A stretch of DNA of 64,000 nucleotides, from NCBI GenBank assembly GCA_017960525.1, contig JAGCZA010000140.1, forward strand, positions 18,302-82,301, in the 5' to 3' direction. Numbering within the stretch: position 1 is the first letter of the stretch; every line of letters begins with the position of its first letter. Of the stretch, positions 1,411 to 43,560 are shown one piece after another. The notes under the pieces are model-generated. The model had not been told where the DNA came from. It ran no database searches and was given only the letters and a program-made list of their open reading frames with translations. Source of the stretch: Prevotella sp. (GTDB lineage Bacteria; Bacteroidota; Bacteroidia; Bacteroidales; Bacteroidaceae). The position numbers and the translations under genes were made by a program.

Positions 1411-3867
1411 CTACTGTTTAATGCGGACAATATTGAGTGAATAGGCGGGAACGTCGACCAATACTGCCGACTCGCAGGCAGGCGTGAGCACTTGTTCCAC
1501 GGGGTGGATATTGGTAGGCTGTTGCAGCGTGTTCTCATCCATACCGTCGTTGGCAGCCAAGCGAATGACACGAGCCTCTCTGGCGCGGAAGTTCTTCAAG
1601 TTCAAGCTGGCGGTGGTCTGCATATCGCCCGTGTTCACCAACTTGACAATAAGCTCGCCTGAGGCTTCGTCTATAGTGGCCGAAGAGTAGACACCCTTCG
1701 ACGTGTCGTGCTTCAGTACGGTGTCGAAGACAAGTTCGTCGCCCAGCCAAGCCTTCACGCTGTCGCCTGCCACCTGCAGTTTGACGTCATACCACTTGCC
1801 CTGCTCTACGCGGCCTCTGCGGATGACAGTCTGCAGCTTACCACCACTGCCAATCTGCTCAATGGCGTGCTGCGTGTTGCCCCATCCGCCAAAGTTGAGC
1901 CAGCAGTAGTTGCGCTCGTCCACATAATTGAACACGATGATGAAACCCTCTGGGCCTCTGTCCTTGCGGGCACGGCACTGGATGGTGTAGTGGTCGGAGT
2001 CAATGACGTGGTTGCATATTGCCAACGGGCCTTCCTCACGTCCTTTGTGTTGCAGGATGCCATCGTTCATCTCCCATTTGCCGCTGACAAACTCAGGCTT
2101 CCCCGTCTTGGGCAGTGGGTCGCAATGGGTGTAACTGGCCTGCGTGCCCCAGGTGGAATAGCCCACGCGGCTCCTCTTGGGCGTGACGGGCTTGCGCTTC
2201 ATGTTCTCGTAGGGGTTTTGCTGGCTGACCTTCACCACTTGCGTGCCAACGTTTCGCGGCATAAGCATCTGAACGTAATAGGAAGGTGTGCCCATCACAC
2301 GACTACTGTTGAAGCGTATCATATCAGGGCGCCACTTGGCATCGTTCTCGTTGACGAAGATGGGGGCATAACTGTTCAGCGGCACGATGTCGCTGTTGTT
2401 CTCCATACCCATCATATAGACGGCCTCACCTAGTGCAGCATTCATATTGCCCAAGTCACCGAAGCCGTTGGTCACAGCATATTCGCCAACGTAAATTTTC
2501 GGTCCCCGACGGTCGTAACGATCATATTTATGGAAAGCCTCGGCAAACCATCCGGGCGTGCGATAGTAATGCTCGTCCAGCAGGTCAACGGGTAACTGGC
2601 TCTCCCACCTGGGGTTGTCGTCGCCCCAGGCCACAACGTTGCCTATGAGTTTGATATTAGGATACTTGGCCTTGATGGCCTTGTAGAACAGGTTGTAGCG
2701 GTCGTAGTAGCGGTCGCTCTGCTGGCGCGGATCGGGCTGGTTGTTCTCATTGCCAATCTCCAGATACTCAATGTTGAAAGGCTCAGGATGGCCGTACTTT
2801 GCGCGCAGAGCACCATATTTCGAGGAGACGGGACCGTTGGCATACTCCAGAGCGCCAAGCGTCTCGTCAATCCAGGGCTGCAGCGAGTCGACAGGGGTCA
2901 GTCCACCGTGCCACAGGCCCACATTGACTACGTAGAGCGGCTTTGCACCCAGGTCTTCAGCCAACTGGAGATACTCGTGGAAACCGATGCCGTCGGTCGT
3001 GCGATAGCCCCAGTTCACGTTCCAGTGTCCCTCGCGCTCCTCAATGGGGCCGATGGTGCGCTTCCAGCGGAAAGCATTGTCAGGACTCTCCTGACCCTCC
3101 ACGAAACAGCCGCCAGGGAAACGCATAAATTTCGGATGCATCTGCCAGAGCATATTGGCCAAATCGGGGCGCATGCCATTTTCGCGGTTGCGGAAAGTCG
3201 GGGGGAAGAGGCTCACCACATCGAGGCAAACCACGCCCGTACCGTCGAAGACGAGCGCAAACTGTGCCTTCGGGTCGTTGTCGTTGGCTTGCAACGTGGC
3301 AGTATATTTCTTCCATTCCTTGGATTTGGTGTCGAGTGTGATGCTGGCCTCGGCATAGATGTCGCCGCCATCCTTTGAGCAGAGCGTGGCCTTCACCGCT
3401 CCACCCTTATACTTCAGAGCCTTGGCCCAGAAAGAGAGGCGGTAGGTGCGTCCCTGCACGGTATTGATGCCCCAAAAGCCTTCGTTGACAAGACAGACAG
3501 GCGATGCCGGCGTGGCGTTGACGGTCAGTTCCAAAGCGTTATGTTGCACAGCGTTGAGCAGCGGAGCCTTCTTGGTGGGCTGAATGAGTTTGGCTTGGAG
3601 TTGCGACGGTGCTGCAGCGTATGTGGTCCAGCCTTGCATATCAGCAGGAGCGCCGTAGCGTGGCCCGTCTTCGAAAGAGCGGTTGCGTATGAGTTCGGCA
3701 TACAGTCCGCCATCGGCAGCATGATTGATGTCTTCAAAGAAGATGCCATAGTGTGTAGGGCTGATGCGCGGCCCACGATTCTGGGCATCAATATCGATAT
3801 TCACCTGTGCCTGAACGGCAGAGTAGGCCATTGTCAACAGCAGTAAAGCGGTCTTAATTTTCATCAC
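1411..3867 (-). CDS. Alpha-L-arabinofuranosidase, GH51
   Basis: An 818-residue secreted enzyme predicted to release terminal arabinofuranosyl residues from arabinan, arabinoxylan or pectin side chains. Signal peptide at residues 1-20 (hydrophobic core, then AVQAQ). GH51 N-terminal strand with HYGIFFEDINHAADGG near residue 40. A carbohydrate-binding-like insert at about 80-220. Catalytic acid/base in EIGNEN (Glu374) and nucleophile in YVGEYAV (Glu462). After the main barrel, residues ~600-740 look like a concanavalin-type jelly-roll, as in several Bacteroidetes GH51 enzymes. A -7 box (TACCTTTG on the minus strand, complement of 3897-3904) lies just upstream. The small membrane gene follows closely. 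Confidence 0.93.
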   Translation of the reverse strand: MMKIKTALLLLTMAYSAVQAQVNIDIDAQNRGPRISPTHYGIFFEDINHAADGGLYAELIRNRSFEDGPRYGAPADMQGWTTYAAAPSQLQAKLIQPTKKAPLLNAVQHNALELTVNATPASPVCLVNEGFWGINTVQGRTYRLSFWAKALKYKGGAVKATLCSKDGGDIYAEASITLDTKSKEWKKYTATLQANDNDPKAQFALVFDGTGVVCLDVVSLFPPTFRNRENGMRPDLANMLWQMHPKFMRFPGGCFVEGQESPDNAFRWKRTIGPIEEREGHWNVNWGYRTTDGIGFHEYLQLAEDLGAKPLYVVNVGLWHGGLTPVDSLQPWIDETLGALEYANGPVSSKYGALRAKYGHPEPFNIEYLEIGNENNQPDPRQQSDRYYDRYNLFYKAIKAKYPNIKLIGNVVAWGDDNPRWESQLPVDLLDEHYYRTPGWFAEAFHKYDRYDRRGPKIYVGEYAVTNGFGDLGNMNAALGEAVYMMGMENNSDIVPLNSYAPIFVNENDAKWRPDMIRFNSSRVMGTPSYYVQMLMPRNVGTQVVKVSQQNPYENMKRKPVTPKRSRVGYSTWGTQASYTHCDPLPKTGKPEFVSGKWEMNDGILQHKGREEGPLAICNHVIDSDHYTIQCRARKDRGPEGFIIVFNYVDERNYCWLNFGGWGNTQHAIEQIGSGGKLQTVIRRGRVEQGKWYDVKLQVAGDSVKAWLGDELVFDTVLKHDTSKGVYSSATIDEASGELIVKLVNTGDMQTTASLNLKNFRAREARVIRLAANDGMDENTLQQPTNIHPVEQVLTPACESAVLVDVPAYSLNIVRIKQ

Positions 3868-10208: not shown

Positions 10209-11260
10209 TGGAACGACAGAAAGTATTCATCGTAGAACGGCTGGAGACGCTGCTTTCCCAGGCCGTCAGCGCCGTCGGTGCCGACCGCACCTTCATCCTC
10301 ACCGACGAGACCACCCGCCGCCTGTGCCTGCCCCTGGTGCAGGGGCTGAAGTGCCTGGAGGGGGCCGAGGTCATCAGCATTGCCGCCGGCGACACCAACA
10401 AGTCGCTCGACAGCGTCAGCCACGTGTGGAGTGAACTGCAGCGCTTGGGGGCCACACGCCACTCGCTGCTGGTCAACCTGGGCGGAGGTATGGTGACCGA
10501 CCTGGGCGGCTTCGCAGCATCGACGTTCAAGCGCGGACTAGCCTACATCAACATCCCCACCACCCTGCTCTCTATGGTCGACGCCTCGGTGGGCGGCAAA
10601 ACGGGCATCAACTTCGGCGGACTGAAGAACGAGGTGGGCGTGTTCAGCGAGGCCCGCAGCGTGTTCCTCGACACGACTTTCCTGTCCACCCTCGACGCCG
10701 AGAATATGCTCTCCGGCTATGCCGAAATGCTCAAGCACGGCCTCATTTCGACCAGTGAGCACTGGGCCGAACTGCTCCGCTTCGACCCCGTGGAGGCCGA
10801 CGGCGCACAGTTGCGCATGCTCCTGGCCAAGAGCGTGGCCGTGAAGGAGCGCATCGTCGAGGAAGACCCCACCGAAAAGGGCATACGCAAGGCCCTGAAC
10901 CTGGGGCACACCGTGGGCCACGCCTTCGAGAGCCTCGCTCTGCAGCGCAAGCCCGTACTCCACGGCTATGCTGTGGCCTGGGGGCTGGTGTGCGAACTGT
11001 ACTTGAGCGTAGCAAAGACTGGCTTCCCCGTCGACAAAATGCGGCAGACCGTCCGTTTCATCTTCGACAACTACGGCCGTATGCCCATCACCTGCGACGA
11101 CTACCCCGCCCTGCTCGAACTGATGACCCACGACAAGAAAAACACCGCCGGCCGCATCAACTTCACCCTCCTCGGCGACATCGGCGACATCCGCATCGAC
11201 CAGACCGCCACACGCCAGGAAATAGAGGAATCACTCGACTTCTACCGCGAGGGCTGCTGA
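10208..11260 (+). CDS. aroB: 3-dehydroquinate synthase
   Basis: A 350-residue enzyme converting DAHP to 3-dehydroquinate in the shikimate pathway. The NAD-binding loop is LLVNLGGGMVTDLGGFAA; substrate and metal motifs include SVGGKTGINFGGLKNEVGVF, SGYAEMLKHGLI and LNLGHTVGHAFES. The ATG at 10208 is chosen because it overlaps the stop of the TatD gene and starts a protein of normal length. A longer open frame upstream is only a shadow inside the TatD gene. A strong 19-bp inverted repeat follows 14 bases after the stop. Confidence 0.95.
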   Translation: MERQKVFIVERLETLLSQAVSAVGADRTFILTDETTRRLCLPLVQGLKCLEGAEVISIAAGDTNKSLDSVSHVWSELQRLGATRHSLLVNLGGGMVTDLGGFAASTFKRGLAYINIPTTLLSMVDASVGGKTGINFGGLKNEVGVFSEARSVFLDTTFLSTLDAENMLSGYAEMLKHGLISTSEHWAELLRFDPVEADGAQLRMLLAKSVAVKERIVEEDPTEKGIRKALNLGHTVGHAFESLALQRKPVLHGYAVAWGLVCELYLSVAKTGFPVDKMRQTVRFIFDNYGRMPITCDDYPALLELMTHDKKNTAGRINFTLLGDIGDIRIDQTATRQEIEESLDFYREGC

Positions 11261-41050: not shown

Positions 41051-41243
41051 CCGGATTACAAATCCTGATACTTGGTTCTGTCGGATTCTTGCATCTCTTT
41101 GGTAGCAAGCGAACAGAGTTCGAGCGGCAAATCCGACAGAACGGCAGCGCAAGTGGCGGCAGTCAGTTGTCTGTATGTTCCGTTTCATATCGTATGTCAT
41201 ATTCATTCGTGTAATTCGTTAAATTCGCGGTTCTTGTTATATT
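41025..41243 (-). repeat. Leader/palindrome repeat unit, copy 1
   Basis: Read on the minus strand: AATTCGT runs, then a frame MNMTYDMKRNIQTTDCRH, then palindromes around GGATTTGTAATCC, then a signal-peptide-like coding stretch. Here the frame stays open into the 943-residue gene. Copies 2 and 3 lie at 42123-42303 and 43300-43560. Confidence 0.8.
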
Positions 41244-41265
41244 TTGTTAATTCCTTGCAGAATTA

Positions 41266-41297
41266 TTTGGTTCTTATTGGATAAATGCCTATCTTTG
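41266..41297 (+). promoter_or_regulatory. Rightward Bacteroidetes-type promoter facing the Abi gene
   Basis: TTTG at 41266-41269, 20 bases, then TATCTTTG at 41290-41297. There is no rightward gene nearby; the expected transcript starts near 41304 and runs into the hairpin at 41309-41342, convergent with the Abi-family gene ending at 41350. Confidence 0.65.
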
Positions 41298-41303
41298 CAG
41301 TGT

Positions 41304-41380
41304 TGAATCCCATCAGCCCCTGACGCAAGTCAAGCTGGTGGGTATTGTTTTATACTGGTTTTAGTCTGTCTATCTTTTTG
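41304..41380 (+). ncRNA. Candidate structured RNA next to the Abi gene
   Basis: Directly after a promoter, CCCATCAGC (41309-41317) pairs with GCTGGTGGG (41334-41342), one pair being G-U. An inner TGAC/GTCA stem closes a GCAA tetraloop (41325-41328). Beyond the stem the + strand is T-rich (TATTGTTTTATA, later CTATCTTTTTG), which could end a short transcript; the 3' end is a guess. Location beside an Abi-family HEPN gene recalls the reported abiF RNA motif, but no covariance model was run. Alternatively it is simply a terminator for a converging transcript. Confidence 0.45.
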
Positions 41381-42048
41381 CAAACACGATTTACATGGTC
41401 TATGCCATAGAGAAAAACACTACTTTTGATACCCATCCATTCAAGTAACACCTGCATCTTTTGGTATTCATTACGGATGTAGTCAGTGTATATTTGTTCC
41501 CCTTGAGCAGGAAAGCAAATAGGTTCGTGGTGTGCTATGCGATTACGTAGAGTGTTTATCTTGTCCAGTTCATTGAATATGTAAGAGGGGTTATATTGAG
41601 CTTGAGCAGAAGACCGTGGACGATTAGGGAAAATCCGAAGCAGGTCTCTTCCCGTTTGGCGATATTGTATTGGAGAGAACATGTATTTCCATATTCCGAA
41701 TTCCATTTCTGCCAGCAATTTGGTGTGTGAATAGGCATTGTCTCTCTGTAATTTGTTATATGCAAAATAAATTATGTCACGCGTTTTAGATAATATTGGC
41801 AATGTAAAGATGCCATTAGGCATAACGGAATTTTTCAGCCATTCAGTACCAAAACGAGCGGACAAATGACTATTGATTGCATTACGTAGTGCAACTTCAA
41901 AAAAACTGATTATTGCAAAGGCGGTCTGGGCCAGCTCTACGTTATAGCGGTAGAGCGTCATCGCCTTACGGGTATCGCCACAACAGGCCTGTACATAGCG
42001 TGTCATGCGCTCCGCAGAGATAATCCGTTCAAAGTCCTTGTATTTCAT
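41350..42048 (-). CDS. Abi-family HEPN-type abortive infection-like protein
   Basis: A 232-residue protein. Motifs typical of the Abi-like (Abi_2-related) family: RYVQACCGDTRKAMTLYRYN, FEVALRNAINSHLSARFG, and near the C-terminus LDKINTLRNRIAHHEPI, an R-N-x4-H HEPN ribonuclease-like signature. Family members are implicated in phage exclusion or toxin-antitoxin activity through RNA cleavage; activity here is inferred. A canonical promoter lies immediately upstream (42070-42100), and a convergent promoter plus hairpin lies just past its 3' end. The gene is flanked on both sides by repeat units, which suggests an inserted cassette. Confidence 0.78.
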   Translation of the reverse strand: MKYKDFERIISAERMTRYVQACCGDTRKAMTLYRYNVELAQTAFAIISFFEVALRNAINSHLSARFGTEWLKNSVMPNGIFTLPILSKTRDIIYFAYNKLQRDNAYSHTKLLAEMEFGIWKYMFSPIQYRQTGRDLLRIFPNRPRSSAQAQYNPSYIFNELDKINTLRNRIAHHEPICFPAQGEQIYTDYIRNEYQKMQVLLEWMGIKSSVFLYGIDHVNRVCKKIDRLKPV

Positions 42049-42069
42049 ACTGTGGCTCCTTTAAATGTG

Positions 42070-42100
42070 CAAAGTTACGACAATTTTTTGAAATGGCAAA
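42070..42100 (-). promoter_or_regulatory. Promoter of the Abi-family gene
   Basis: Minus strand TTTG (complement of 42097-42100), 19 bases, TAACTTTG (complement of 42070-42077). Both boxes match the Bacteroidetes consensus; the start codon is ~20 bases downstream. Confidence 0.8.
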
Positions 42101-42122
42101 GTTTTTGACGAAATAACTGAGG

Positions 42123-42275
42123 TTACGCTATAGTGGCTTCCACGGTCATTATCAGGAGCAGGATTGCAAATCCTGATACTCGGTGCTGCCGGATTGCAAA
42201 TCCGCCAGAACGGCTGCGCATATAGCGGCCGTCGGTTGTCTGTATGTTCCGTTTCATATCGTATGTCATATTCAT
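42123..42275 (-). pseudogene. 50-codon leader ORF in repeat copy 2 (signal-peptide remnant)
   Basis: The ATG complementary to 42273-42275 opens a 50-residue frame starting MNMTYDMKRNIQTTDGRY, passing through two GGATTTGCAATCC palindromes (read GGFAIRQ and SGFAILL) and ending LLIMTVEATIA before a TAA. It parallels the N-terminal extension of the 943-residue gene and its signal peptide, but no mature protein follows. It is either a remnant of a lost surface gene or a true short leader peptide. Confidence 0.55.
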
Positions 42276-42303
42276 TCGTGTAATTCGTTAAATTCGTGGT
42301 TCT
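42133..42303 (-). repeat. Leader/palindrome repeat unit, copy 2
   Basis: Nearly identical to copy 1 over the AATTCGT run and the MKRNIQTT-coding segment, then a shorter palindrome array (GGATTTGCAATCC twice). It lies between the RhuM gene stop and the Abi promoter. Confidence 0.8.
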
Positions 42304-42305
42304 TA

Positions 42306-43229
42306 TTATAATTGGTTCAGAATGATGTTCTTGTCAATTTGAAGCTTGTCTATGGCGAACAGTTTGCGGCCTAAGTCCTTGAAGGAGGCACCGCAATGCC
42401 ATAGTTCATCGTCGATGATGAGGAATCTGTCGTGGAACGGACGAGTGAACGTTTGCACTGTAACCGTTGCACTGGGATGTTCCTGGTTGTGCAACTGCTG
42501 CAAGCGCTGCAAGCTCGCATCTATGTGCTCTGTGTATATGGCAGCCTGTACACCAACATTCCGCACGTCAAGCATGTCGAAGGTTTTGGCATCAACGTAA
42601 TTGTCGATAAGAACCACCTCATGCTGCGCCGTCTTTATCAAGTCTTCTACGAACAGGCGCGCCGAAAACACCTGTCCATTGCTGAATACCCCCACGACTG
42701 GTGGCAGACTGGTCTGCACGAAGAAGTTAAGTTTCTGCTGATGTTCGGAAAGAGTGGATTGTATTTGACTAATGGTTGCATTTTGTATCGACATTACCTT
42801 TTCCATCTTCGACTCCAAAGCATCTAAACGATGGTTTATAGTAAACCCTTTTAGTAAATGCTCTCTTATTATGCCCGTTGCCCATTGGCGGAACTTTGTA
42901 CCTCGTAATGACTTCACGCGGTATCCTACCGAAATGATAACGTCCAAGTTGTAATAAGCAACTTCATGGGTCTGTTTTTTTCCCTCTATTGCTCCGTGCA
43001 AAGTGGTTGTTCGATTTTTTCGAACTACCACTCTTTCGTCTAATTCCCCTTCCTTGAAAATATTGGATATATGAAAACTTATAGTAGACTTCGCCTTTTG
43101 GAAAAGAACAACAATCTGCGCCTGTGTCAGCCACACAGTCTCGTCCTCCAGCCGGACCTCTAAGCGGATGGTCTCGTCAGGCTGGTAGAGGATGATCTCG
43201 CCTTTATTGTTCTCTATGCTGTTCGTCAT
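42306..43229 (-). CDS. RhuM-family protein with C-terminal PLD-like region
   Basis: The ATG complementary to 43227-43229 is chosen because a promoter (-7 box at 43253-43260) lies between it and a further upstream ATG; this gives 307 residues. Residues ~10-130 match the RhuM virulence-protein family (GEIILYQPDETIRLEVRLED, VWLTQAQIVVLFQKAKSTI, YYNLDVIISVGYRVKSLRG, FRQWATGIIREHLLKGF). A short coiled region follows (~130-170). The C-terminal ~120 residues (VLIDNYVDAKTFDML; FHDRFLIIDDELWHCGASF) resemble a phospholipase-D-like half domain with H-x-R...D. Function unknown; probably phage or island derived. It is the intact counterpart of the damaged gene at 29344-29823. Confidence 0.8.
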   Translation of the reverse strand: MTNSIENNKGEIILYQPDETIRLEVRLEDETVWLTQAQIVVLFQKAKSTISFHISNIFKEGELDERVVVRKNRTTTLHGAIEGKKQTHEVAYYNLDVIISVGYRVKSLRGTKFRQWATGIIREHLLKGFTINHRLDALESKMEKVMSIQNATISQIQSTLSEHQQKLNFFVQTSLPPVVGVFSNGQVFSARLFVEDLIKTAQHEVVLIDNYVDAKTFDMLDVRNVGVQAAIYTEHIDASLQRLQQLHNQEHPSATVTVQTFTRPFHDRFLIIDDELWHCGASFKDLGRKLFAIDKLQIDKNIILNQL

Positions 43230-43252
43230 TTCTGCTTCGTTGCTATTGTGTG

Positions 43253-43284
43253 CAAAATTACCACTTTTAAGCGTAACGGCCAAA
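43253..43284 (-). promoter_or_regulatory. Promoter of the RhuM-family gene
   Basis: Minus strand TTTG (complement of 43281-43284), 20 bases, TAATTTTG (complement of 43253-43260). It fixes the start at 43229 rather than 43283. Confidence 0.7.
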
Positions 43285-43299
43285 TATTTAACAGAAAAT

Positions 43300-43560
43300 C
43301 TAACTCCACGCCCCCGTGGCTCCCACGGTCATCATCACCATCAGGAGTAACATTCGGATTACAAATCCTGATACTCGGTGCTGTCGGATTACAAATCCGC
43401 CAGAACGGGGTACTCGCAGCTGTCGGATAACAAATCCGCCAGAACGGGTACTCGCAGCTGCCGGATTACAAATCCGACTGAACGGCTACGCGGGTGGTGG
43501 CAGTCAGTTGTCTGTATGTTCCGTTTCATATCGTGTGTCATATTTCGTTCAATCCGTTGT
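43300..43560 (-). repeat. Leader/palindrome repeat unit, copy 3, with signal-peptide remnant
   Basis: Minus strand: an ATG complementary to 43539-43541 opens MTHDMKRNIQTTDCHH, which runs through an expanded array of GGATTTGTAATCC-type palindromes with a ~46-bp tandem period and stops within the array. Past the array, 43353-43300 encodes MLLLMVMMTVGATGAWS and a stop, clearly related to MLLLLLMMTLEVG of the 943-residue gene. No mature protein follows. Confidence 0.75.

Follow-up and report, generated by a model that had tools for sequence, protein, structure and literature searches.

The question raised by one locus of a Prevotella sp. genome is what a rightward promoter may serve when it leads into a nested hairpin beside the 3' end of an Abi gene. 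The locus lies within a stretch of 64,000 nucleotides (nt) of contig JAGCZA010000140.1 (assembly GCA_017960525.1, positions 18,302 to 82,301), hereafter the window, whose own numbering is used throughout. Judged from its letters and those of its relatives, the element at 41266-41351 of the forward (+) strand is an RNA gene, because its stem covaries, its distance from the promoter is fixed and close homologues of the Abi gene are accompanied by it. Most probably, the locus as a whole is a toxin-antitoxin pair, in which the small RNA would be the antitoxin and would bind the Abi_2/HEPN ribonuclease encoded next to it.

The promoter described in an earlier inspection of this DNA (the sequence-only reading) is indeed present. 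Read directly from the window, it has the form TTTG-N20-TATCTTTG (41266-41297, +), with TTTG at 41266-41269, a spacer of 20 nt and TATCTTTG at 41290-41297, and the element is kept in relatives. The nested hairpin of 34 nt that follows after 11 nt (41309-41342, +) is defined by folding and by covariation: an outer stem formed by CCCATCAGC (41309-41317) and GCTGGTGGG (41334-41342), an internal loop with CCC (41318-41320) opposite A (41333), and an inner stem TGAC (41321-41324)/GTCA (41329-41332) closed by the loop GCAA (41325-41328). The U-rich run TATTGTTTT behind it (41343-41351, +), conserved in the alignment of the copies (A2), is the presumed end of the transcript, so that a small RNA of about 50 nt (41302-41351, +) is predicted, with putative start and end. 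The stop codon of the Abi gene occupies 41350-41352 on the reverse (-) strand, and the hairpin ends 7 bases from the gene, one fewer than the 8 counted at first. Folding of the + strand gives -23.0 kcal/mol (z -2.90), equalled by 1 of 200 shuffled sequences, and the opposite strand gives -17.8 (z -2.06), with 8 of 200 shuffles as good.

Bacteroidota promoters follow the consensus TTTG..TAnnTTTG, and it is this consensus, together with conservation in relatives, on which the promoter call for the small RNA is based. In fact, TAnnTTTG has been found at most 12 nt, and mostly exactly 4 nt, before the start of the RNA model in 77 of the 81 distinct upstream sequences of relatives, against 201 of 17,000 random 20-mers (1.2%). 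A sigma-70-style promoter scan, unsuited to this phylum, was uninformative (10 sites versus 8.3 in shuffled sequences, with the RNA promoter unlisted).

The comparison of homologous loci proposed in the sequence-only reading has borne out the structure. In a sequence-only alignment of 17 copies, 99.1% of the cells are paired, five of the 13 pairs show double changes and 28 cells carry them; none of 500 shuffles reaches the observed paired share, number of double-change cells or covariation score, while two other measures are no better than in shuffles, namely how many pairs show any double change (285 of 500 shuffles) and how many further pair types occur (all 500). The same structure is recovered, unprompted, by RNAalifold. 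When 85 copies (80 distinct rows) are fitted to the model, 99.4% of the cells are paired, nine of the 13 pairs are double-changed and all five measures beat at least 94% of the shuffles, bearing in mind that a fitted set leans towards the structure. Two models of the RNA, R1 and R2, were used, the latter being the covariance model for the scans of genus, phylum and viral sequences; R1 matches the window at 41302-41355 with 77.2 bits, a score obtained by construction since the model was built from relatives including the window copy. The consensus in alignment A2 is TCCCggtA-gcCcCTGa..tCAAgcTatcGGGTtT.GTTTT.

It is possible to read the hairpin as nothing more than an intrinsic terminator, which might serve both genes, or as a stray promoter followed by a terminator, without any role as RNA. 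A hairpin with a U-run at the 3' end of a gene does look like a terminator on the + strand, and 209 G+C-rich hairpins of 9 bp (loop 3-21, both strands) exist in the window; however, just one of these, at 41309-41342, carries the core CCYCTG..CAA, the sequences of the internal loop and the inner stem are conserved across copies, and the element has its own promoter in the 77 upstream sequences mentioned above. A further argument comes from the position of the RNA among the homologous loci, taken as the best 80 of 102 relatives from a scan with the window protein. In 67 of them, the RNA is upstream and divergent, where ending the Abi transcript is impossible; six have the downstream convergent layout of the window, one has the RNA upstream on the same strand, two have an upstream divergent RNA and a second one that follows the gene in its own orientation, and four are cut by the contig start. 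The RNA is thus purely on the opposite strand in 73 of the 80 (67 upstream, six downstream), mostly with a gap of 35-113 nt to the gene, and in a further clade from the genus search it follows the gene on the same strand, in some cases as two tandem copies. As its placing varies (before, behind or against the gene), the RNA serves the Abi gene neither as a leader nor as an attenuator or terminator, and the terminator reading is considered very unlikely.

The shifting position has also a bearing on how the RNA might act. The layouts cluster on a protein tree obtained by a quick method, with six changes for six labels (minimum five; shuffled mean 16.7), and the convergent layout could conceivably have arisen once; weak extra upstream matches in two loci, L033 and L069 (20.5 and 20.1 bits), look like vestiges. 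Because the position changes between clades, the RNA would most likely act on the protein in trans. In L096 (505-1944) the two partners have been separated naturally, since a transposase gene sits between RNA and Abi gene and the gap is 1386 nt. Tandem RNA pairs, from a few to about 40 nt apart, occur in L011, L017, L150, L134 and L155, and recall the two motifs of RCd22, the RNA of a C. difficile system discussed below. Regulation of the Abi mRNA by antisense base pairing, in the manner of type I systems, is suggested by the convergent overlap at 41350-41351 in the window and by that layout in six homologous loci. This explanation is given slightly less credence than the terminator, because RNA and gene diverge and do not overlap in most loci, the loop shows no conservation, and the predicted duplex with the start of the RNA's own mRNA (-15.87) is no stronger than with those of other loci (-16.19), being better than the median in 26 of 54 cases when only the mRNA start is considered.

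The tie between RNA and Abi gene has been followed at several distances. A match to R1 is present in 76 of the 80 homologous loci, and in the other four (L053, L066, L073, L106) the gene starts between bases 1 and 79 of its contig. Within the genus (299 genomes), an R2 match (E<=0.1) lies within 1.5 kb of all 29 homologues with at least 150 amino acids and at least 33% identity, a count that drops, from 52 protein matches, 17 below 150 amino acids and six below 33% identity. No full-length close homologue with sequenced flanks and without the RNA was found. The window genome has two RNA-Abi pairs, which account for both its R2 matches, although in the second pair the protein match crosses a TAG. 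The RNA is found across Bacteroidota, for example in plasmid loci of Chryseobacterium (59.9 bits), Hymenobacter (58.5), Phocaeicola (48.7) and Riemerella (33.4), and is thus not confined to Prevotella. RNA and protein distances are correlated (r 0.584, no permutation of 999 as high in a Mantel test) in the 54 loci with a single RNA and an unbroken protein, the set used also for the duplexes, a correlation explicable by shared descent alone.

The partner, at 41350-42048 (-), codes for 232 amino acids and is an Abi_2 family HEPN protein, the presumed ribonuclease toxin. It matches Pfam PF07751 (Abi_2) with 34.5 bits, above the cut-off of 25.6, and its best PADLOC models are PD-T4-5 (E 5.2e-14) and AbiD (E 1.4e-6); several relatives also have PD-T4-5 as best model. 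The R-N-x4-H motif reported in the sequence-only reading corresponds to the catalytic motif RNRIAHHE (residues 168-175; 41524-41547, -), in which R168, N169, R170, A172, H173, H174 and E175 are invariant in the 43 aligned homologues and the fourth residue varies. Abi_2 is matched by all 43, and both the Pfam match and the HEPN R-x4-H motif by which AbiF/AbiD proteins are recognized are present. A search of the PDB with the single sequence gave no relative; with a profile, the sole match was 8vz6_A (PbAbiF, E 0.025). Profile comparison with the longer AbiF of locus L117 gave E 1.9e-6, with RNRIAHH aligned to RNMCCHH. The gene also has a promoter of its own, as had been claimed, with the form TTTG-N19-TAACTTTG (42070-42100, -) when read against the Bacteroidota consensus.

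The evidence that points to an antitoxin is found where the two partners have parted. A strict sequence pattern occurs at four places in three of 398 genomes, each beside an Abi match, and gave the impression that the RNA is confined to Abi neighbourhoods; this was overturned by the covariance-model scan, with its many solitary copies. In the genus, 47 matches reach 50 bits or more; an Abi match lies within 1.5 kb of 28 of these, and the other 19 have none at that distance. Of the 54 unlinked genus matches at all scores, the 34 with at least 31.9 bits (31 loci) were inspected and the 20 weaker ones left out; an HMM search of these 31 loci yielded no Abi frame of at least 40 amino acids, and four of them keep a trace of the gene, namely Abi fragments in L156, L157 and L166, and 13 residues followed by the contig end in L123. 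In the phylum sample (365 genomes), the RNA occurs at 21 places, nine of them next to an Abi match, and the Abi gene is broken or partial at five of these nine. In the other 12, no Abi relic was seen at the seven strong places, the five weak ones (31.4-38.5 bits) being left out. This one-sided loss, in which the RNA outlives the toxin, is the pattern that would be expected of a poison and its antidote.

Solitary copies bear on two further explanations. The RNA might be a guide or activator steering the HEPN nuclease to its targets, as in Cas13, and AbiF has been proposed as an ancestor of Cas13 (PMC12373285, PMC12737573). Nevertheless, the RNA has no variable guide segment, free variation beyond the covarying stem being confined to an apical loop of a few bases, and it persists where the toxin gene has been lost, so that only a slim chance is left for this role. 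Alternatively, the RNA might be a Bacteroidota family of small RNAs or repeats in its own right, near Abi genes only by chance, as the 19 of 47 strong matches without an Abi match within 1.5 kb could suggest. This is the least probable of the explanations considered, given that the RNA accompanies 29 of 29 close homologues, mostly at the gap stated above, that its layout follows the protein tree and that both R2 matches of the window genome adjoin an Abi homologue.

A neutralizing RNA is the best explanation, since it accounts for the one-sided loss and agrees with the literature on AbiF; of the three roles first suggested (antitoxin, guide or substrate), that of antitoxin is favoured and that of guide disfavoured. 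According to this proposal, an RNA of about 50 nt would be transcribed separately from the toxin gene, from a promoter of its own, and its nested hairpin would probably also end its own transcription. The RNA would bind the Abi_2/HEPN ribonuclease and hold it inactive, just as AbiF is silenced by RCd22 and AbiFr. Phage takeover or stress might then halt the supply of RNA and free the ribonuclease, which would cleave cell RNA and arrest growth, in the manner of abortive infection. Several observations weigh against this interpretation. None of the six genus homologues below 33% identity has a recognisable RNA, nor have the six near full-length homologues of 105-163 bits inspected in the phylum sample, where weaker Abi matches without RNA and fragments (for example in G606 and G582, and several of 61-80 bits) were left out; genome G606 has Abi fragments but no RNA match. 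In addition, the Rfam abiF RNA treated below has no match, five of the 29 linked RNAs are weak (24-31 bits) and trusted mainly by their usual place, some RNAs that lack a gene are at the end of a contig (L123, L131), so that their gene may simply have been cut off, and the many solitary copies imply that the RNA is not always part of a two-part system.

The surroundings of the solitary copies have also been examined. No partner gene is common to most of them, and among 72 neighbours there are eight small clusters of two each. Genome G034 contains eight RNA matches, one by a close Abi homologue and two with the Abi fragments of L156 and L157. Other defence or toxin-antitoxin genes are found close to some solitary RNAs: L145 has AbiEi, L151 a nucleotidyltransferase with HepT and L142, judged by eye, restriction-like genes, and L160 is another case. 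In five viral scans, the only supported contigs were L209 and L170, and two further pattern matches (L210, L211) had no R2 support. L209 (IMGVR_UViG_3300005683_000016, part of a viral contig of 142 kb) has an RNA of 45.9 bits with R2 at 2342-2388 (-), 7 bases behind the gene of a major head protein (phrog_11589), possibly a counter-defence RNA in a late operon. L170 has two RNAs, at 10913-10968 (-, 37.2 bits) and 11058-11110 (+, 65.4 bits), which adjoin a gene pair that by eye resembles a toxin-antitoxin pair. No Abi homologue was found in the inspected stretches of either contig.

Outside Bacteroidota, R2 was applied with filters off to 15 Abi_2 loci (L176-L190), taken from records of plasmids or phages. 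L190 is the sole supported locus (25.1 bits, E 1.5e-4); L186 has a match at the expected place with 14.7 bits (E 0.12), that of L184 (16.5 bits, E 0.026) is merely to a plain terminator hairpin, and the remaining loci gave nothing convincing with R2. The short Abi_2 genes of these loci often have an upstream opposite-strand hairpin and terminator, seen by folding and by eye with no control, and L179, L180 and L182 have in common a different motif, ending in GGACAAA. A bolder idea, on balance rather doubtful, is that the window RNA represents one branch of a wide superfamily of small RNA antitoxins, transcribed separately, which guards short PD-T4-5-like Abi_2 ribonucleases in several phyla, and that solitary copies in hosts and phages, including the one of L209, are trans-acting antidotes, for anti-addiction or counter-defence, which disarm the Abi ribonuclease of the host.

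With respect to neighbouring genes, a RhuM-family gene (42306-43283, -; PF13310; PADLOC PDC-S05, E 1.7e-110) lies directly upstream of the Abi gene, and the two possibly form a small defence cluster. Around the Abi gene, a near-identical stretch (CCGTTTCATATCG..GTCATATTCATTCG and similar) is repeated, by eye, at 41158-41238, 42222-42305 and 43500-43560.

What is new in this locus depends on how it compares with systems already described. The sequence-only reading left open an abiF member or a distinct version, and also proposed a scan with the Rfam abiF RNA, RF03085. This family has no match in the window at the gathering score (37 bits), nor at E<=10 in 41200-42350, and none at E<=5 in 18 homologous loci; membership of RF03085 thus fails, and distinctness is favoured by the covariation, the own promoter and the tie to Abi_2. 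RF03085 has an outer stem of 6 bp, an AGC/GCU inner stem and a CAAAUC bulge on the 3' side, whereas the window RNA has an outer stem of 9 bp and an inner stem CUGA(C)/(G)UCA, in a different pairing order. By eye, the RF03085 consensus CCCGCCAAGCCUCUCAACGAUGCUCAAAUCGGCGGGU and the window RNA have in common the CCC..GGGU stem, the CCUCU (CCYCU) strand and the CAA strand; the link to an Abi_2 gene is likewise shared. Locus L118 bridges both models at one place (RF03085 30.7 bits, below cut-off; R2 25.5 bits). In the phylum sample RF03085 is rare (three of 247 genomes at E<=0.1, one above cut-off), the above-cut-off locus, L117, being a same-strand leader of an AbiF of 299 amino acids. At L119, RF03085 scores 30.4 bits (1501-1536, -; below cut-off), there is no Abi-like frame of at least 120 amino acids in the stretch, and a neighbour resembles, by eye, a gene for 212 amino acids in L170. 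Because RF03085 has no match, landmarks are shared, the pairing order differs and L118 bridges the two, the RNA forms a separate branch of the AbiF-type RNAs, whose partner is a short Abi_2 protein similar to PD-T4-5. The literature searched holds no description of this branch, an earlier mention in a 2025 Cell paper being conceivable; a study that predicts many microbiome RNAs does not mention Abi in its main text (PMC8040213).

RNA antitoxins of HEPN ribonucleases were reported only in 2025 and are placed at the root of Cas13. As the present compact family has one hairpin, its own promoter and a movable position, co-transcription as a leader would not be a requirement for an RNA of this kind, and the natural series of positions and toxin-loss states lets the logic of an antitoxin be read from genomes. 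The model may be used to seek RNA partners by Abi_2 genes now counted as single-gene defences, and the solitary and phage copies, if they do silence the toxin, would represent RNA counter-defence. The closest described example is AbiF-RCd22 of a C. difficile prophage, again an Abi_2 HEPN protein beside a hairpin RNA, in which the toxic protein is bound by RCd22 and thereby neutralised, both in cis and in trans (PMC12373285). RCd22 is described there as a leader with two motifs that precedes the toxin gene on the same strand and is transcribed together with it, whereas the window RNA has one motif, its own promoter and a convergent orientation, and its Abi protein is shorter and distant. PbAbiF of a Prevotellaceae bacterium (PDB 8vz6) is a dimer with one RNA per monomer (PMC12373285, PMC12737573); it too is a HEPN Abi protein with a small RNA, an antitoxin there and presumably here, although it has 300 amino acids and is only weakly similar to the window protein (the match at E 0.025), and its RNA, AbiFr, is likened by description and not by sequence. 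PD-T4-5 is described as a plasmid-borne distant relative of AbiF/D with abortive defence, and presented as a gene without RNA partner (Vassallo 2022, PMC9519451); it comes from another phylum and has low identity to the window protein. Finally, in type III toxin-antitoxin systems such as ToxIN, an RNA antitoxin directly binds a ribonuclease (PMC12373285), which is what the window RNA would do; the toxin here is HEPN and not ToxN-like, and a single motif with its own promoter replaces the array before the toxin. The layout of AbiF-AbiFr and type III systems, with the RNA upstream in the toxin operon and a terminator between them, is thus replaced in this locus by an RNA with its own promoter on the opposite strand.
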